Notes under the pieces: generated by a model
The model's input: only the letters and a program-made list of their open reading frames with translations
The model's database searches: none
What the model was told of the DNA's origin: nothing
Part shown: positions 5,137 to 63,987 of the stretch, piece by piece
Layout of the letters: each line of letters begins with the position of its first letter
Numbering within the stretch: the first letter of the stretch is position 1
NCBI RefSeq assembly: GCF_005869845.1
Contig: NZ_VAWF01000001.1
Coordinates: 868,001-932,000 of the forward strand
DNA from: Fodinibius saliphilus
GTDB lineage: Bacteria; Bacteroidota; Rhodothermia; Balneolales; Balneolaceae
Length of the DNA: 64,000 bases
Direction of reading: 5' to 3'
Position numbers and translations under genes: made by a program

Positions 5137-8112
5137 ATGTTTTCGAACCATACCTCGACCAACCGTACTTTAGCCCTATTTACTTTTTTAGCTAGTCTCG
5201 TTTTATATACCCTTACAATGGCACCGACAGCAAGCTTCTGGGATGCCGGAGAGTTCATTGCTGTTGCCCATGGGTTACAGGTTAATCACCCTCCCGGAGC
5301 ACCTTTTTATTCGCTGCTGGGCCGCCTGTTTTCTATGTTCATGCCTGCCTCTTATGTAGCCATAAGTATAAACTTTATTAGTGCATTAAGTTCTGCACTA
5401 ACGGTAATGTTGCTCTATCTTATCAGTGTACGCCTGGTCCGAGAATGGAAAGGGGCACCTGAAAGTATGATTAGCATCGACAAAATCGGAATGTATGGCG
5501 GTTCACTGTTGGGGGCATTGACATTTGCCGTAACTGATACCTTCTGGTTTAATGCTGTAGAAGCAGAAGTATATGCGATATCCCTGTTTTTTACAGCCAT
5601 GGTGGTTTGGCTGGCACTGGTATGGGCAGAAAACCACGATGCTCCCCACAATGAGCGCTGGCTAATTCTTATTTCCTATTTATTCGGGCTTGCGCTTGGG
5701 GTCCACCTGCTGAATTTATTGGCCCTTTTCTTTGTAGCTCTTATCATTTACTTCAAGAAAAAAGAGTTCGACTGGGGTTCTTTTGCTTTAATGGCGGGCT
5801 TGGCGTCTGTTTCCTTCTTATTAATTTATCCCTTTACCCTGCAATCCATACCGTCCATAATGGAGGGGATAACAACAGCTAGCTATGGTCTTATTGGCCC
5901 AATTGCTTTTATAATAATGGTTCTTTTGGCTATTAGCTGGGGCCTTTACTATACGCATAAGAATAATCACCGAACTGCCAACATCGTGATATTATGTTAT
6001 ACGATGATTTTAATAGGCTATTCTTCATATGCCCTAATTTTTATTCGTTCATCTGCAGATCCGCCAATTGATGAAAATGACCCTGAAACCGTTGAATCTT
6101 TTATCGACTATCTTGAACGTAAGCAGTATGGGAATACGCCCCTATTAACTGGTTATTCATATGATAATGCCAAAGGCACTATTGACAGGGATAATGAAAC
6201 CTTTTTTCCCCGGCGTTATTCAACGGCACCCCAACATATACGTCAATACTCTCAGTATTCCAGTGATCTAGACTTCTTCTTAGATTATCAGCTTAAGCAT
6301 ATGTATTGGAGATACTTTGCTTGGAACTTCATTGGCAGAGATGCTGATATCCAGGATTCCGGATGGCAGGCTGGTTTTGTAGATACGGAACATGAAGATA
6401 ATCCCGCGCATAATAGTTATTACTATATCCCATTCCTATTAGGCCTTTTCGGAATGCTTTTTCACTTCCAAAATGATTGGAAACGGGCCCTCTCGGTCTT
6501 TGCCCTCTTTGCATTTACCGGTCTGGCTATTATCGTATTTCTAAATCAAACCCCTATGCAACCGCGAGAAAGAGATTACGCCTACGTCGGTTCCTTCTTT
6601 GCCTTTTCAATATGGATTGGTATGGGTGGAATGGGACTGATAGAATTGATCAAAGAATATCTTAACAGTAATAAAGTAGCCGCCTATAGCACCATTGGGA
6701 TACTATTGCTAGCTTCCCCGGTTTTGGTTGGCGTGCAAAACTTTCATGACCATGATCGAAGTGAACGCTACGTAGCACCCGATTATGCTTATAACCTTTT
6801 ACAATCAGCAGCCCCCAATTCTATTCTCTTCACCAATGGTGACAACGACACCTTTCCATTGTGGTATCTACAAGAGGTAGAAGGGATACGTACCGATGTA
6901 CGTATTGTTTGTTTGAGCCTTCTTAATACCGAATGGTACATTAAGCAACTGCGTGATCAGTGGTCCCATGAGTCTCCTCCACTGCCAATTTCTCTTACAA
7001 ATGACGAGATTGATCAACTCACTCAGAATTACAATCTGCATGAGCCAGATACCATTTCTATCCCTGTTAATAGAAATCTTTTGCAAAAAGCATTCTCTGA
7101 TGAAAATAAATACAAAGAAACAATTGGTGTAAAACCTGACACTTCCCTCGAAATATATTCAAAAGGGATTGACTTTGATATGCCCGTAGACTCATTAGAT
7201 GATGAAGTATCATGGTATTATAAAGGACGCTCACTAGGGAAAGGACGTGACGGCAAACAACGATATTATACTCAAGTACAAGACGAAGTTATCTTAGACA
7301 TTTTAAAAACTAACCGCTGGCTTCGTCCTGTGTATTTTGCCAACACAGTATCGCGTCAAAGTCAATTAAACTTACAGTCCTATTTCCGATTTGAGGGCAA
7401 GGCTTACCGGGTTGTTCCTGATAAGCATAAAGGTGATCGTTATGGATGGATCAATCCAAAAATTCATGCAAAACGACTCAAAAAATTCCGATTCCGTAAG
7501 TGGAATAGCCCAGATGTATACCTTGATGAAAATATTCGTCGCATGCTTAGCAACTACCAAGTAAGCATCACGGAATTAGCTGATAAATATAAAGAGCTGG
7601 GACAACCAGATAGTGCCCGCTATTGGCTAAAATGGGGACAAGAACGTATTCCCTTCCTTAAAGCCTCTACAGGACTGTATCCGCTGGTGATGTACGCTTA
7701 TAATTATGCTGATGTTGGAGGAACAACTGAAGCCCTTGAACTAGCGAATAAGGCAGAAAAGAAGGCCATTGAAATGCTTAAAGAAAACATGGTAAAGTTT
7801 TCTGAAATGCGACAAGAGATAGAACAGCTCAATCAAGAAACCAAGGAGGCCCGTCAGAATGCTGACATGAGTAAACAACAGCAACTACGCAGTCGAATCC
7901 AAAATGTAATGCAGCGTCGCCAAACAATTTCGCGCAACCTCTCCCGGAGTAGAGACTTCTTGGTTATTATTCAGCGGATATACTATCTAGCAGGAAATGA
8001 TGAGAAAGCCACGGCGCTTTACGATAAAGTAAATGAAATTACGGGCGGACAGCTTCCCTTCCCGGATTCTAAAGAGGCCAGTAAATCAAAAGTTGAGCAA
8101 TATGGACTCTAA
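5137..8112 (+). CDS. DUF2723 (TMEM260-like) multi-pass membrane protein, probable glycosyltransferase
   Basis: This large protein of 991 residues has about a dozen membrane helices in the first 550 residues and a soluble C-terminal part. The N-terminal motif ASFWDAGEF followed by VNHPPGAPFY (about residues 30-55) is the DUF2723 signature. Its acidic residue after the first helix is the hallmark of GT-C O-mannosyltransferases. The human homologue TMEM260 is an O-mannosyltransferase, so a glycan-transfer role at the membrane is likely but inferred. The C-terminal 200 residues include TPR-like helices and a Gln/Glu-rich coiled coil near 875-930. Such proteins are typical of Bacteroidota and Rhodothermota. 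Confidence 0.88.
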   Translation: MFSNHTSTNRTLALFTFLASLVLYTLTMAPTASFWDAGEFIAVAHGLQVNHPPGAPFYSLLGRLFSMFMPASYVAISINFISALSSALTVMLLYLISVRLVREWKGAPESMISIDKIGMYGGSLLGALTFAVTDTFWFNAVEAEVYAISLFFTAMVVWLALVWAENHDAPHNERWLILISYLFGLALGVHLLNLLALFFVALIIYFKKKEFDWGSFALMAGLASVSFLLIYPFTLQSIPSIMEGITTASYGLIGPIAFIIMVLLAISWGLYYTHKNNHRTANIVILCYTMILIGYSSYALIFIRSSADPPIDENDPETVESFIDYLERKQYGNTPLLTGYSYDNAKGTIDRDNETFFPRRYSTAPQHIRQYSQYSSDLDFFLDYQLKHMYWRYFAWNFIGRDADIQDSGWQAGFVDTEHEDNPAHNSYYYIPFLLGLFGMLFHFQNDWKRALSVFALFAFTGLAIIVFLNQTPMQPRERDYAYVGSFFAFSIWIGMGGMGLIELIKEYLNSNKVAAYSTIGILLLASPVLVGVQNFHDHDRSERYVAPDYAYNLLQSAAPNSILFTNGDNDTFPLWYLQEVEGIRTDVRIVCLSLLNTEWYIKQLRDQWSHESPPLPISLTNDEIDQLTQNYNLHEPDTISIPVNRNLLQKAFSDENKYKETIGVKPDTSLEIYSKGIDFDMPVDSLDDEVSWYYKGRSLGKGRDGKQRYYTQVQDEVILDILKTNRWLRPVYFANTVSRQSQLNLQSYFRFEGKAYRVVPDKHKGDRYGWINPKIHAKRLKKFRFRKWNSPDVYLDENIRRMLSNYQVSITELADKYKELGQPDSARYWLKWGQERIPFLKASTGLYPLVMYAYNYADVGGTTEALELANKAEKKAIEMLKENMVKFSEMRQEIEQLNQETKEARQNADMSKQQQLRSRIQNVMQRRQTISRNLSRSRDFLVIIQRIYYLAGNDEKATALYDKVNEITGGQLPFPDSKEASKSKVEQYGL

Positions 8113-58741: not shown

Positions 58742-58939
58742 CCTCATACCTGATATAATACAAATCCTGATAAACTGAGAGTTATTTCTCCCCACACCAA
58801 TTAGTTCACTGTTCTATTACCTTCATACCTGTTGGGAAAAAAGGGGTGTTTCAAAACTTTGAAATCATCTATACAGGAAAGTACCTCATTGTTGTTAAGT
58901 AGCTTTTTAATACAAAACATACTCATAAAGGTACTTGTT

Positions 58940-60061
58940 ATGATAGAACAAACAATCCCAAACAAGTTCGTTGAACTTGCAGATAAACAACGAGAAAGTG
59001 AAGAAGAACTCTTTTCGAAAGAAAATGTGGTAGGAGTTGCCCTTGGTAATAAGATCAAGAATGGTAAAGATACCGAAGAAACTGCCATTCAGGTTTTAGT
59101 ACAGCACAAACTGGAACCAGATTTACTATCCAAAAATGACCTCATACCCGATAAGGTTAAAGGAACTAAAACAGATGTAATTGAAGTAGGTCAAATTGTA
59201 GCCGGCCCCTTGGCTCCTGATATAGAGCCTGTGACTCAAACTGGTTTAGATGTAGGCAATGGGGATATGGTTGACTGGGATATGCAAGAAGAGCTGGATG
59301 ATATACTTACCGACCCCAAAGAACGTACACGTGCTCTCAAAAAACGACGAGCGAAATCGGCAAGAGGAATATCTCCTGAACAGCTACACCAACGAAGTCG
59401 TCCCGTTCGTGGTGGTTTTAGTATCGGCCATTATAAAATCACTGCCGGTACAATGTCTACAGCGTGTTACGATTTAAAAGCTTTTCCCGGTATACCCCAG
59501 AAATTCTATATTTTGAGCAATAATCATGTTCTGGCAAACTCTAATAAAGCCAACATGGGAGACCCAATTTTACAACCGGGTCCCTATGACGGAGGATCAT
59601 ATCCCCGAGATATGGTTGCTCGTTTAAGTCGATTTATTCCTATTCGATTCAAAAATTCTTCTACGACTCCTCGTAATTATGTAGATGCTGCTATCGCTGA
59701 AGTTCCCTTCCATATTGCAAACCGTGAAGTATACTGGATTGGACACGTTAAAGATCTGTATGCAGCTCCAAAAGTTGGTGATATCGTCCAGAAGGTAGGG
59801 CGTACTACTGATTTCAGTACTGGGCGTGTCAAAAGTATCAACGCAACTGTTGATGTCAATTATGGTAATGGGCGGGTAGCTCGATTTGCACACCAAATCC
59901 TTACTACTCGTATGAGCGCGGGAGGCGATTCGGGTAGCCTTGTTACTACATTGGATGAAAAAGCTGTGGGATTGTTATTCGCTGGTTCGCCCTATGTAAC
60001 AGTACTTAACAATATCCTCTATGTACAATCATTGCTCAATATTCGTATCCACGAAAAATAA
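58940..60061 (+). CDS. Trypsin-like serine protease without signal peptide
   Basis: I use ATG 58940, which has AAAGG about nine bases upstream; a longer reading from 58832 adds 36 residues without homology. An N-terminal domain (VVGVALGNKIKNG, EETAIQVLVQHKL) precedes a chymotrypsin fold. The triad is His in LSNNHVLANSN, Asp in YVDAAIAEV and Ser in SAGGDSGSLV. VGRTTDFSTGRV before the Ser is typical of NAL1-like and related bacterial proteases. There is no export signal, so it should be cytosolic or released another way. The targets are unknown. Confidence 0.82.
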   Translation: MIEQTIPNKFVELADKQRESEEELFSKENVVGVALGNKIKNGKDTEETAIQVLVQHKLEPDLLSKNDLIPDKVKGTKTDVIEVGQIVAGPLAPDIEPVTQTGLDVGNGDMVDWDMQEELDDILTDPKERTRALKKRRAKSARGISPEQLHQRSRPVRGGFSIGHYKITAGTMSTACYDLKAFPGIPQKFYILSNNHVLANSNKANMGDPILQPGPYDGGSYPRDMVARLSRFIPIRFKNSSTTPRNYVDAAIAEVPFHIANREVYWIGHVKDLYAAPKVGDIVQKVGRTTDFSTGRVKSINATVDVNYGNGRVARFAHQILTTRMSAGGDSGSLVTTLDEKAVGLLFAGSPYVTVLNNILYVQSLLNIRIHEK

Positions 60062-60327: not shown

Positions 60328-62262
60328 TTATGGGTCACAACATTTTTTTGCAGGAGTATTTTCTTCCTCCCCTTGTCTACCATTGCCAAGAATTAAATGC
60401 ACGTCTGAGTATCTATGTTGAATGCGAATGGCATTGGCAATTGCTAATAACGCTACCCCTACATCAGCAAAGATAGCCTCCCACATCGTTGCAATTCCAA
60501 AAGCGGCAAGCGCCATTACCAATAGTTTAATACCCAGCGCAAAGCCAATATTTTGCCATACCACCCGGTGCGTAAAATTCGCAATCTCTATAGCTGTAGA
60601 TATTTTTGAAGGCTGATCGGTTTGTATAACCACATCAGCTGTTTCTATTGTTGCGTCTGACCCTATACCACCCATTGCAATTCCAACATCGGCTAAGGTA
60701 ATCACCGGGGCATCATTCACACCATCTCCGATAAAACCTACCACATTCTTAGGTCCCAGCGCCCCTTTAACGTAACTATATTTATCATCAGGCATAAGAC
60801 CGCCATAAGCATACTCCAACCCCAACTTGTTCGCAACACGATCGACTACTTCCTGTTTATCACCAGACAACATTACAAGCTTTTCAACGCCTAGCTGATG
60901 TAACTTTTGAACTGCACTTTTGCTATCCTCTTTAATTTTATCTGTTATGCTGATGGTTCCTACATGCATACCCTCTTTTGCAACATGCACATAGGTATAA
61001 GAATCTTTCCAGCCATTACCTACAAGCTGGATATCATAATCATTCAATAAATCACGGTTCCCAACAGCTACCATTTTCTGGTTAATGGTCCCTACAAGTC
61101 CTTTACCAGATACTTCTTTTTGATTGGCCACCGAATACAACGATTGCCCATTCACGTAATCTGCTATAGCCTTTGCAATGGGATGAGTAGACTGCCGTTC
61201 CAATGAGGCGGCCAATTTAAGCAGCTCCTCTTTATCGTAACCATTCACAGGATAAACCTCCTGAACTTTAAATTCTCCCTTTGTCAGGGTTCCTGTTTTA
61301 TCCATAAATAGGATATTCATCTTGCGAAGTTGATCCAGAAAGTTAGCGCCTTTGAAAAGGATGCCATTGCGCGATGCCGCACCAATGCCTCCAAAATAGC
61401 CGAGGGGAATGGAAATCACCAACCCACAGGGGCAAGAAACAACCAAGAAAATAAGAGCACGATAGAACCATTCTTGGAAAACATAGTTCTCTACAAATAA
61501 ATATGGCAGAAAAGTCACAGCCACAGCCATCCACACGACAATGGGCGTATAGACTTTAGCGAAACGGCTCATAAACCGTTCTGTTGGTGCCTTTCGCGAG
61601 GAAGCCTCTTTTACCATCTCTAATATCTTGGATAGCTTCGTTTTTTCATAGGCACTGGTTACTTCAATACGCACAGGAGTTTGGCGGTTGATGGATCCGG
61701 CCCATACCTCTTCCCCAGTTTTGCGTATCATCGGCTTGGATTCTCCGGTTAAGGCAGCCGTATTAAAAGATCCCTGATCTGAAAGCAATATCCCATCCAA
61801 TGGCACTTTCTCCCCGGGTTTGACACGAATAATTTCCCCTACTTTAACATTTTGGGGACTAACTTTTAACACAGTGCGATTTCGTTCAACGTTTGCTATA
61901 TCGGGCTGACTGTCAATTAATGATTTGATAGATCGTCGTGCCCGTTGTACAGCATTACCCTGGGCATATTCTCCAACCATATAGAACAGCATTACGGCTA
62001 CCCCTTCAGCATACTCGCCGATGGCAAAAGCACCAACCGTGGCAATACCCATCAGCAGAAATTCACTAAATATGTTTCCTTTTTTAATGGATTTAAATGC
62101 TTTTATCCATACCGGGCCACCTACTGACAGGTACGAAAGTATATATAGCGATAGATACACGTACTGCTGTCCTGTAAAGGATATTAAATATTCTGCGACT
62201 AATGCCCCTACCAGGAACACAGCACTAATAATGACTTCTTTGTATTTTTTGAGATATGACAT
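60328..62262 (-). CDS. Heavy-metal P1B-type ATPase without N-terminal HMA domain
   Basis: This pump exports a soft or divalent metal such as Zn, Cd or Pb. The start is ATG 62262, overlapping the stop of the upstream gene as TAATG. The protein begins directly with membrane helices; no CxxC HMA domain is present. The ion-binding motif is SCPCGLVISIPLG, the phosphorylation site DKTGTLTKG, the A domain LTGESKPM and the hinge GDGVNDAP. The tail ends KKCCDP, a possible metal site. The CPC type with a GYFGGIGAASRNG follow-on is frequent in Bacteroidota Zn/Cd exporters. Length 644. Confidence 0.92.
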   Translation of the reverse strand: MSYLKKYKEVIISAVFLVGALVAEYLISFTGQQYVYLSLYILSYLSVGGPVWIKAFKSIKKGNIFSEFLLMGIATVGAFAIGEYAEGVAVMLFYMVGEYAQGNAVQRARRSIKSLIDSQPDIANVERNRTVLKVSPQNVKVGEIIRVKPGEKVPLDGILLSDQGSFNTAALTGESKPMIRKTGEEVWAGSINRQTPVRIEVTSAYEKTKLSKILEMVKEASSRKAPTERFMSRFAKVYTPIVVWMAVAVTFLPYLFVENYVFQEWFYRALIFLVVSCPCGLVISIPLGYFGGIGAASRNGILFKGANFLDQLRKMNILFMDKTGTLTKGEFKVQEVYPVNGYDKEELLKLAASLERQSTHPIAKAIADYVNGQSLYSVANQKEVSGKGLVGTINQKMVAVGNRDLLNDYDIQLVGNGWKDSYTYVHVAKEGMHVGTISITDKIKEDSKSAVQKLHQLGVEKLVMLSGDKQEVVDRVANKLGLEYAYGGLMPDDKYSYVKGALGPKNVVGFIGDGVNDAPVITLADVGIAMGGIGSDATIETADVVIQTDQPSKISTAIEIANFTHRVVWQNIGFALGIKLLVMALAAFGIATMWEAIFADVGVALLAIANAIRIQHRYSDVHLILGNGRQGEEENTPAKKCCDP

Positions 62263-62633
62263 TATAAATGAGGTTTTTGATCGATCCAGCTCCATGCATT
62301 TTCAGCCTCGTCAATAGAAAATATCATTAATTCTCCTTTCATTAAGGTACCAAAATACTGTCTCGTTTGTTTTTGATTCTTATGACTATGAACAACAGCA
62401 ATACGGTCAAAACAGTTAGCATATTTCGCATACAGGCGGCGGCTCATCCTAAGTACATTAAAGGCCGCCCACCCTTCAAAACCTTCTATAATGACTAATA
62501 GGTGAGGATCTTTCAAATATTGAGCTTGTTTTCTAATCAATTCTGCTAGCTCTGCTAATTCTTCTCTAGAAATCTCTCCGGCCACCCGCAAGGCCAGGTT
62601 CCCATTATTCACATCTTCATTTATCTCTATCAT
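62262..62633 (-). CDS. SpoIIAA-like STAS/SEC14-type protein
   Basis: This 123-residue cytosolic protein starts at ATG 62633; TTG 62639 is the alternative. The pattern LALRVAGEISREELAEL, HLLVIIEGFEGW and the C-terminal AENAWSWI match the SpoIIAA-like (PF11964) family of small STAS-fold proteins, some of which bind lipids or partners. The stop is fused to the start of the P-type ATPase gene (TAATG), so a link to that pump's activity or assembly is likely but inferred. Confidence 0.85.
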   Translation of the reverse strand: MIEINEDVNNGNLALRVAGEISREELAELAELIRKQAQYLKDPHLLVIIEGFEGWAAFNVLRMSRRLYAKYANCFDRIAVVHSHKNQKQTRQYFGTLMKGELMIFSIDEAENAWSWIDQKPHL

Positions 62634-62730
62634 TTTCAATGATTTATTTTTATTTCAATCTTTATTTCAAAAATAAACCCTTGATAAACTTAATTCTTAC
62701 AACATTATGTATTTATTGTGCAAAATTATG

Positions 62731-63185
62731 AAATCTACCACTACATTCCTTTTTTATGGCCTTTAATCAACATAGCTATACTCTTTCAATGAGTAGCGCC
62801 TGTCTATTACCAGTTTTAACTTTCCCATTTAAATCAGTTCCTTAAGGAGAAGTATAGTTTTCTTTTCGCCCCGCTAATTCAGCCAGGTAACCTGCCCCTA
62901 AATCACAGATAACGTTATTTGGACAGGCCTCAAATAGACTCCCTGTGGGTGTAATCAATCATCTCTTCGGCTTTCAATGGTTTTACCATTTCTATGTTAG
63001 TAGTACGGCAAAATCCAATAACTTCTGCTCAAAAATATTTAGCGAACTGAACTAGAACCTTGCCGACTGAGCCAAAAGCCTCAAAGATAAGATCCTTTTG
63101 CGCTTCTCAGATATTTCTATTTTAAGAAAGGCAGTATAGTATGTTCACCAAATTGGATAACGGCTACTTTCTCAAAGATCTAGGT
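62731..63185 (-). pseudogene. Decayed zinc-type (MDR) alcohol dehydrogenase/quinone reductase
   Basis: Read on the minus strand the region gives pieces of a medium-chain dehydrogenase in shifting frames: VAVIQFGEHT, KDLIFEAFGSVGKVLVQFAKYF, then a stop where Gly is expected and AEVIGFCRTTNIEMVK with EEMIDYT. A deletion follows, then LKELI, a stop, MGKLKLVIDRRYSLKEY and YVD before another stop near the HKKGNVV end. The order matches residues of about 120-320 of NAD(P)-dependent alcohol dehydrogenases. Several stops, shifts and the loss of about 80 codons show long decay. The N-terminal third is gone. Confidence 0.75.
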
Positions 63186-63273
63186 TAGGAGTTTTTCACA
63201 ACCTTCTCTTCACCCTCTATTCAGCAATACTCCGAACAATTTCAAAATTGGGTATTTCCTCCTGCTGATAATA

Positions 63274-63840
63274 CTATAATCGGTCAATAGAAGTACGTTT
63301 ATTTTGCTTGATGTCCTTGAAATGGGATGGTGCAAGTCCCGTCTCTTTTTTAAACTGTCGTGAAAAATGCTGTTGACTACTATAGTCAAGCTCCAAAGCA
63401 ATCTGGCTTAGGGTTTTCTCATCATATACAATAAGTTCTTTAGCTCGTTCTATTTTTTGAAGAATAAAATACCGCTCTATTGATTTGCCCTCAACGGCAG
63501 AAAAAAGGCGACTAATCTGCTGATAGTCTTTATAAATATTATCTGCTAAAAAGTCGGATAAGTTATTCTCTAATGGAGTGCCTGACCTCACTTGCTGAAT
63601 AATAAGTTGCTTCACCTGTTCAACAATGCGACTGTTCTCATCATCAATAATATCAAAACCATTATCACGAATAATGGAAATAAGTTTGGCATACTGATCT
63701 TCATCAATAGGTTGAGTCAGATACAACTCACCAAGTTCCATATTTTGCACCTCAAATCCAGCTAGTTTCAGCTTTTCTTCTAATACCTCAGCACAGTGGT
63801 TGCACACCATATTTTTAATATGAAAGTGTTTGTTGTTCAT
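63274..63840 (-). CDS. AraC-family regulator with N-terminal HMA-like metal-binding domain
   Basis: This is a two-part regulator of 188 residues. Residues 1-70 look like an HMA domain: IKNMVCNHCAEVLEEKLKLAGF with C13 and C16 as soft-metal ligands. Residues about 100-185 carry a double-HTH AraC DNA-binding domain, with KTLSQIALELDYSSQQHFSRQFKKETGLAPSHF. A metal-responsive activator is the simple reading. It is probably the controller of the P1B ATPase operon a short way downstream, separated from it by the decayed dehydrogenase. The ATG is at 63840. Confidence 0.9.
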   Translation of the reverse strand: MNNKHFHIKNMVCNHCAEVLEEKLKLAGFEVQNMELGELYLTQPIDEDQYAKLISIIRDNGFDIIDDENSRIVEQVKQLIIQQVRSGTPLENNLSDFLADNIYKDYQQISRLFSAVEGKSIERYFILQKIERAKELIVYDEKTLSQIALELDYSSQQHFSRQFKKETGLAPSHFKDIKQNKRTSIDRL

Positions 63841-63942: not shown

Positions 63943-63987
63943 TTCCTAACAAGTTCACATTGAGAATATCCTTCCAAATGTTAGGAA
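63943..63987. repeat. Inverted repeat near the right edge
   Basis: TTCCTAAC (63943-63950) and GTTAGGAA (63980-63987) are perfect 8-base arms with a 29-base spacer. No T tract or start codon is close. Confidence 0.25.

Follow-up and report, generated by a model that had tools for sequence, protein, structure and literature searches.

A predicted one-component metal-efflux unit in Fodinibius saliphilus: an HMA-AraC regulator, a candidate 21-bp-period operator and a ZntA-like pump

Why should a metal pump lack an N-terminal metal-binding domain when the regulator encoded nearby begins with one, and what might connect the two? The question is raised by a locus of Fodinibius saliphilus within a stretch of 64,000 nucleotides of contig NZ_VAWF01000001.1 (the window hereafter, C1:868001-932000 of a 3.6 Mb genome), in which a regulator gene (63274-63840), a gap of ~640 bp, a gene for a SpoIIAA-like STAS protein (62262-62633) and a gene for a P1B-type ATPase (60328-62262) follow one another on the minus strand. 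The original prediction, made on this DNA alone, had described a compact unit that senses and exports metal, its sensor carrying an HMA-type domain, and comparison with related genomes supports such a unit: the metal-bound regulator, a fusion of an HMA-like with an AraC-type domain, probably activates the STAS-pump operon and its own gene, and the HMA-less pump would export the metal. What is new here is a candidate operator, a direct repeat with a 21-bp period, which lies beside genes for HMA-AraC regulators and beside their predicted STAS and pump targets. The features on which the argument rests, in window numbering and with the evidence for each, are as follows.

63274 to 63840, minus strand: regulator of 188 residues, HMA-like domain (residues ~1-66, C13-N-H-C16) fused to an AraC-type DNA-binding domain (Pfam, profile, model)
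62698 to 62730, minus strand: candidate operator, direct repeat with a 21-bp period, CATAATTTTGCA-CAATAAATA-CATAATGTTGTA (motif search by expectation-maximisation, genome scans)
62668 to 62675, minus strand: TATTTTTG, match to the Bacteroidetes -7 box, which we take to be TAnnTTTG (sequence)
63975 to 63978, minus strand: TTTG, putative -7 region of the regulator gene, 31 nucleotides from the start of the second half-site of another operator copy at 64006-64038 (sequence)
62262 to 62633, minus strand: SpoIIAA-like STAS protein of 123 residues, with a TAATG overlap with the pump start (PF11964, model)
60328 to 62262, minus strand: P1B-2 (Zn/Cd/Pb-type) P-type ATPase of 644 residues (NCBIfam, solved relatives, motifs)
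60337 to 60342, minus strand: codons of C642 and C641, the di-Cys near the C-terminus of the pump (tail ...KKCCDP; sequence)

Open reading frames (ORFs) and Pfam place the three genes exactly where they had been predicted, and the TAATG overlap is in the sequence as claimed, base 62262 being common to the STAS stop codon (TAA, 62264-62262, minus strand) and the pump start codon (ATG, 62262-62260, minus strand).

These genes appear to be linked by the candidate operator, whose pattern is CAWAANNNTGYA-N9-CAWAANNNTGYA, that is, two 12-bp half-sites containing TGCA. It came from an expectation-maximisation search of 40 upstream regions (controls: two shuffles per width, with 25 restarts against 60 for the real regions), in which a width of 20 gave a log-likelihood of 114.6 compared with 63.5 and 66.5 in shuffles; the assignments upstream of RND genes were weak, several of these upstream pieces ending at the locus boundary, and ungapped 18-mers with at most three mismatches, sought among promoters within one genome, yielded no common pair in the loci tested. 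The genome of F. saliphilus holds two exact copies of the pattern, one ahead of the STAS-pump operon (62698-62730) and the other at C1:932006-932038 (64006-64038 in window numbering, just beyond the window), ~166 bp upstream of the regulator start, and no exact copy of the reversed pattern. With up to two mismatches, the window contains two matches; 100 shuffles gave 0.15 on average, and a single shuffle had as many as two. Across 92 genomes of the family there are 22 exact copies in 17 genomes (reversed pattern, 0), all 22 no further than 1.5 kb from a gene for a regulator, STAS protein or pump of these types, and five of them (in G121, G171, G299, G424 and G425) come from genomes outside the derivation of the pattern.

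Which regulators keep company with this site, and with which pumps? The search for related loci kept 80 of 226 relatives. The comparison set comprised 96 distinct proteins, once regulators below 100 bits against the family profile and any with the same core as another had been dropped. Thirty have a CxHC motif, 62 have CxRC, one has CxKC, one has lost the first Cys, and two are ORFs that lack the motif and fall in the same clade as the CxHC proteins; L071 was counted as CxHC on reading (the script gave MAQQQ), and L113 and L114, where the motif is not in the ORF used, were assigned by clade. The CxHC regulators form one clade in the tree (support 100/100), and the resulting 32 proteins are called the clade below, the other 64, from Flavobacterium, Chitinophagaceae and others, lying outside it. 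A DNA pattern for KNMVCxHC was matched in 22 of 395 genomes of the phylum, all in the family of the window. When the partner is taken to be the first pump met downstream within 5.5 kb on the same strand, clade regulators adjoin 23 CPCG pumps, six SPC pumps, one fragment and no pump in two cases, and the others adjoin 32 CPCALG pumps, one CPHALG pump, 17 fragments or pumps with an unread motif, and no pump in 14 cases, so that partner types do not cross between the two groups. CPCALG pumps are called copper type here by motif; the one at L008, with 586 bits, exceeds the cutoff of 397 of the NCBIfam copper model and, with a lower score, also passes the cadmium model. A weight matrix of the operator scores ~24 bits or more in 30 of the 32 clade loci, 15 of which contributed no site to the matrix, and at best 17.3 in 54 loci outside the clade. 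In most loci without a STAS gene the operator starts directly after the regulator stop codon.

The spacing is also found more widely. Behind regulators outside the clade, within 70 nucleotides of the stop codon, pairs of TGCAA/TTACAA-like half-sites stand at a lag of 21 in 46 of 64 cases (21 of 38 without near-copies), compared with at most 8/64 (3/38) for any other lag from 12 to 32 and 16/403 behind other genes, in a test where half-site and lag were picked after the sequences had been viewed. The distance to the putative promoter recurs as well. The TTTG of TATTTTTG in the STAS promoter is 30 nucleotides from the start of the second half-site, the sites of the window end 26-27 nucleotides ahead of TTTG in the putative -7 box, and in 11 of 21 non-redundant sites outside the clade a TTTG again lies 30-31 nucleotides from the start of the second half-site. 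A site with its end immediately ahead of the -33 region would suit an activator. Site, near-exclusive placement and geometry are what the DNA sequence shows.

The protein encoded beside it could sense metal with its N-terminal domain, which profile and model predict to have an HMA fold. Pfam recognises only an AraC-type helix-turn-helix in the regulator (HTH_18/HTH_AraC) and none of the MerR type; its HMA model (PF00403) does not match the window protein, and Pfam alone was therefore rejected as proof of an HMA domain and a family profile and a structural model were used. The 51-member profile matches the HMA domain of CopA (1p6t, E 5e-6) and CopZ (6e-5) over positions ~2-62, and the Pfam HMA model matches nine of the 51 members at E≤0.1. 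In the AlphaFold model, with a mean predicted local distance difference test score (pLDDT) of 89.1, residues 3-65 form a beta-alpha-beta-beta-alpha-beta unit with C13 and C16 at the start of helix 1, and residues 94-181 an AraC-type DNA-binding domain with two helix-turn-helix motifs. Foldseek searches with this model return AraC DNA-binding domains at the top, then CopZ and Atx1 (E 0.02-0.08). C13 and C16 are invariant across the 51 aligned members. The CxxC HMA-like domain that had been proposed for the start of this AraC-type regulator is thus upheld by the profile, the model and the Pfam matches of those nine family members. The closest named regulator among the relatives used is that of Fodinibius halophilus (86% identity). 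A paralogous HMA-AraC regulator in the same genome (L086 6393-6980, around C4:223401-223946) has lost the first Cys of CxxC (MVSLRC).

The pump, in turn, is predicted from its sequence relatives to be a ZntA-like Zn/Cd/Pb (P1B-2) ATPase. In it Pfam recognises an E1-E2_ATPase and a Hydrolase domain but no HMA domain, which agrees with the absence of an N-terminal metal-binding domain that had been pointed out before; such a domain is common in P1B-2 ATPases but not required. CPC(x6)P at residue 277 in transmembrane segment (TM) 6 and N571-x7-K...DxG in TM7-8 make up what we take to be the P1B-2 signature, and DKTGT is at residue 321. The pump scores 509.1 bits against the cadmium family model TIGR01512, above its cutoff of 313.5, and 372.6 bits against the copper model TIGR01511, under its cutoff of 397; the ZntA-specific models NF008262 and NF033775 both score under their cutoffs, and the closest solved structure is that of ZntA (4umv, E 1.7e-110). 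It has four cysteines, at 277, 279, 641 and 642, the last two forming the di-Cys of the tail. Neither this pair nor the repeat at 62698-62730 figured in the original prediction. A pump match at E≤1e-120 is present in 87 of 296 genomes of the phylum sample, and the best 30 of the matches were fetched and inspected. Balneolaceae-clade pumps bear a Cys-rich C-terminal tail: two to four Cys lie within the final 30 residues in 21 of 21 (L010, L246-L265), compared with none of nine more distant relatives (L266-L274), and in an earlier, partly overlapping set, 16 of 17 CPCGLV pumps have two or more Cys over the same final stretch, the pump of L057 lacking the tail because its frame ends early. Pfam finds no HMA domain in the nine distant pumps either. 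Judged by eye, the distant pumps of L266-L270, L272 and L273 begin with stretches that are His-rich (in several) or bear a CC pair (in some), as if a metal-binding tail had switched ends. The L269 pump has a Fur-family gene directly upstream (PF01475, E 7e-9), and L266, L270 and L273 hold ORFs that resemble it by eye.

Put together, these elements suggest the following course of events. The regulator would bind Zn(II), Cd(II) or Pb(II) through C13 and C16, possibly with H15, recognise the two 12-bp half-sites with their 21-bp period just upstream of the -33 region and, if the position of the sites is a guide to the direction of control, activate both the STAS-pump operon and its own gene; the HMA-less ZntA-like pump would then export the metal, its di-Cys tail probably standing in for the missing N-terminal metal-binding domain. 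Several points weigh against this account. The regulator lies ~640 bp from the operon it would control. The window was among the sequences used to derive the operator pattern, and finding the pattern there is therefore not an independent test. With up to two mismatches the F. saliphilus genome has 19 matches against seven of the reversed pattern, and with up to one mismatch 12 genomes of the genus have 26 against two, some of them distant from the locus. Two clade loci, L069 and L101, have no site by weight matrix. In an unbiased scan of lags downstream of the regulators, which gave a weaker signal than the half-site test, a lag of 21 comes top in both classes with a z of only ~3, and eight of ten matches at that lag are reached in just 3/20 clade and 9/38 other sequences. 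Finally, as the CxHC regulators are one clade, their tie to Zn-type pumps amounts to a single event.

How do other readings of the same locus fare? The original prediction had gone beyond the unit itself, suggesting that the HMA domain is carried by the regulator in place of the pump, as though it had shifted from one to the other, so that one kind of domain senses rather than delivers and the STAS protein tunes the pump. The window itself has the required arrangement, with an HMA-less pump, an HMA-bearing regulator and a STAS gene coupled by TAATG, yet 23 of 29 copper-type (CPCA) pumps beside the regulator family (L115-L168) keep an [GN]MxCxxC motif of their own, and the nine distant pump relatives are HMA-less with no HMA-AraC regulator within 1.5 kb (0/9). 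Since family members adjoin HMA-bearing copper-type pumps and distant pumps are HMA-less without the regulator, the HMA domain of the regulator is best read, on these comparisons, as a trait of a mostly copper-linked family, not as a domain relocated from the pump; 16 of 32 clade loci, moreover, lack a STAS gene, and six of 15 STAS-pump loci pair STAS with an SPC pump instead. A domain shift is therefore very improbable. The copper link of the family invites another reading, in which copper is still the main signal for the sensor, and either copper or a general stress from thiophilic metals induces the Zn/Cd pump. Cu(I) is among the ions that a CxxC HMA site can bind, and the relatives outside the clade mostly adjoin CPCALG pumps where the pump was read. 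We nevertheless consider a copper sensor quite unlikely in the clade, where no regulator (0/32) has a CPCALG partner, CPCG or SPC pumps are found instead, often with CusA/CzcA-family RND genes nearby, and CxHC replaces CxRC.

The wiring could also be as proposed with the sign reversed, the regulator being a repressor that metal binding releases from its site. Many bacterial metal sensors (ArsR, CopY, CsoR) are repressors, and a site ahead of the regulator's own gene would suit autorepression, but blocking sites usually lie further downstream than sites that end 26-27 nucleotides before TTTG, a spacing shared with 11 of the 21 sites that remain outside the clade once near-copies are removed, and most AraC-type proteins activate. 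Repression is unlikely on these grounds. That the repeat belongs to another regulator altogether, the HMA-AraC protein being a mere neighbour, is highly improbable, considering that in most loci without STAS, as in the lineage outside the clade, the regulator stop codon is directly followed by the site, and that half-sites two helical turns apart suit AraC-type proteins. Activation by the metal-bound HMA-AraC protein is thus the reading we retain. In genome G121, an exact operator beside a pump relative (C2:34521-34553, L239) and the CxHC regulator match are on different contigs (the latter on C1), which suggests control in trans.

The STAS protein matches the SpoIIAA-like family PF11964 (E 1e-13), its model (pLDDT 75.7) is closest in the PDB to the SpoIIAA-like 2q3l, and no Cys is among the invariant columns of its family. 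Within the stretches examined, a STAS gene is present in 16 of 32 clade loci and none of 64 others. Its coupling to the pump, which the original prediction had proposed to look for in other genomes, is not unique to the window, since STAS lies directly upstream of a P1B pump in 14 of 16 STAS-bearing loci, some of which are near-copies of each other (11 overlapping or at most 22 nucleotides apart, three at 79-113 nucleotides). Of the remaining two, L064 has STAS 192 nucleotides upstream of the pump with a 76-residue ORF called between them on the opposite strand, and L084 holds three STAS genes but lacks a pump. With L064 included, the 15 pumps are nine CPCG and six SPC. In the distant loci L271 and L274 a STAS gene stands two genes ahead of an HMA-less pump. 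The protein might be an accessory made in step with the pump, and most simply a partner or stabiliser of it. The three SpoIIAA-like genes of L084 are in tandem (6540-7664) in a member of the genus (G009) where the CxHC pattern has no match.

The surroundings of the locus add a few observations. The best blastn matches of the 62640-63273 gap cover the operator. A lost gene in this gap was considered and rejected, as the 369-residue gene found between regulator and STAS in G004 (L055 5566-6675) left no trace in it (best match E 1.9); that gene has an operator-like site of its own (6738-6770, 29.6 bits). The loci of relatives often also hold CusA/CzcA-family RND genes and a PII-like gene, and neither was found adjoining the window locus. 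The metal locus is flanked by two ORFs, of 409 and 372 residues, that belong to a single sequence cluster, at 58832-60061 (plus strand) and, just past the window end, from L005 14415 onward (plus strand). Outside the clade, eight regulators (L124, L128, L130, L135, L137, L139, L144 and L150) are directly followed by an ORF of 237-244 residues that matches part of the ATPase profile, some with a CPHALG pump further on.

What would such a unit mean beyond one genome? There is, in our view, about an even chance that short HMA-AraC fusions form a class of one-component metal sensors that has not been described before and is spread widely through Bacteroidota and Balneolota, with a common promoter architecture (a 21-bp direct repeat right behind the regulator gene, at a fixed distance from the -7 box) and a single switch from copper to zinc/cadmium that went with CxRC to CxHC, new TGCA half-sites and an HMA-less pump with a Cys tail. 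With operator and targets predicted and one residue as a candidate for metal selectivity, the regulator family lets the metal response be tested directly throughout the group, and it may hold a natural switch from Cu to Zn that could be studied. One-component copper/zinc sensing in Bacteroidota looks poorly assigned: a survey of copper-homeostasis genes in a flavobacterium genome names MerR, CopY and ArsR candidates, the word AraC being absent from its main text (PMC11213822). Among the matches listed in the open-licence literature, none describes an HMA-AraC regulator or a STAS partner of a P1B pump.

It is against known systems that the unit is best measured. The regulator shares its fold and CxxC position with the HMA domains of CopZ, Atx1 and P1B pumps, but here the domain is fused to a DNA-binding domain, has CxHC in the clade in an NMVC context and is not matched by the Pfam HMA model. 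With the AraC/XylS family it shares a DNA-binding domain with two helix-turn-helix motifs, and AraC itself binds paired half-sites about two turns apart; the usual N-terminal domain of that family is a cupin, whereas here it is a 66-residue HMA fold. For the pump and its partner, three papers provide the comparison. In Mycobacterium, the gene of the small protein PacL1 is apparently in one operon with that of the P1B pump CtpC, a precedent for a pump partner, although PacL1 contains both a TM segment and a motif that binds metal, unlike a STAS protein with a SpoIIAA-like fold and no invariant Cys (PMC9374683). Plant HMA4, a Zn P1B pump, likewise has di-Cys motifs in its C-terminal extension, which reportedly bind zinc with nanomolar affinity and are needed for function, whereas the bacterial pump of the window has one short CC-type tail at its very end, which may bind metal (PMC6255694). 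Control of a ZntA-like pump, finally, is what the unit would have in common with ZntR/ZntA, and ZntA (4umv) is the best solved relative of the window pump. A 'ZntR' of Riemerella is described as a MerR protein, hence not of the HMA-AraC type (PMC11960050). Here, by contrast with ZntR/ZntA, the regulator is an HMA-AraC and not a MerR protein, the candidate operator is a direct repeat with a 21-bp period, and the pump is HMA-less with a Cys tail.

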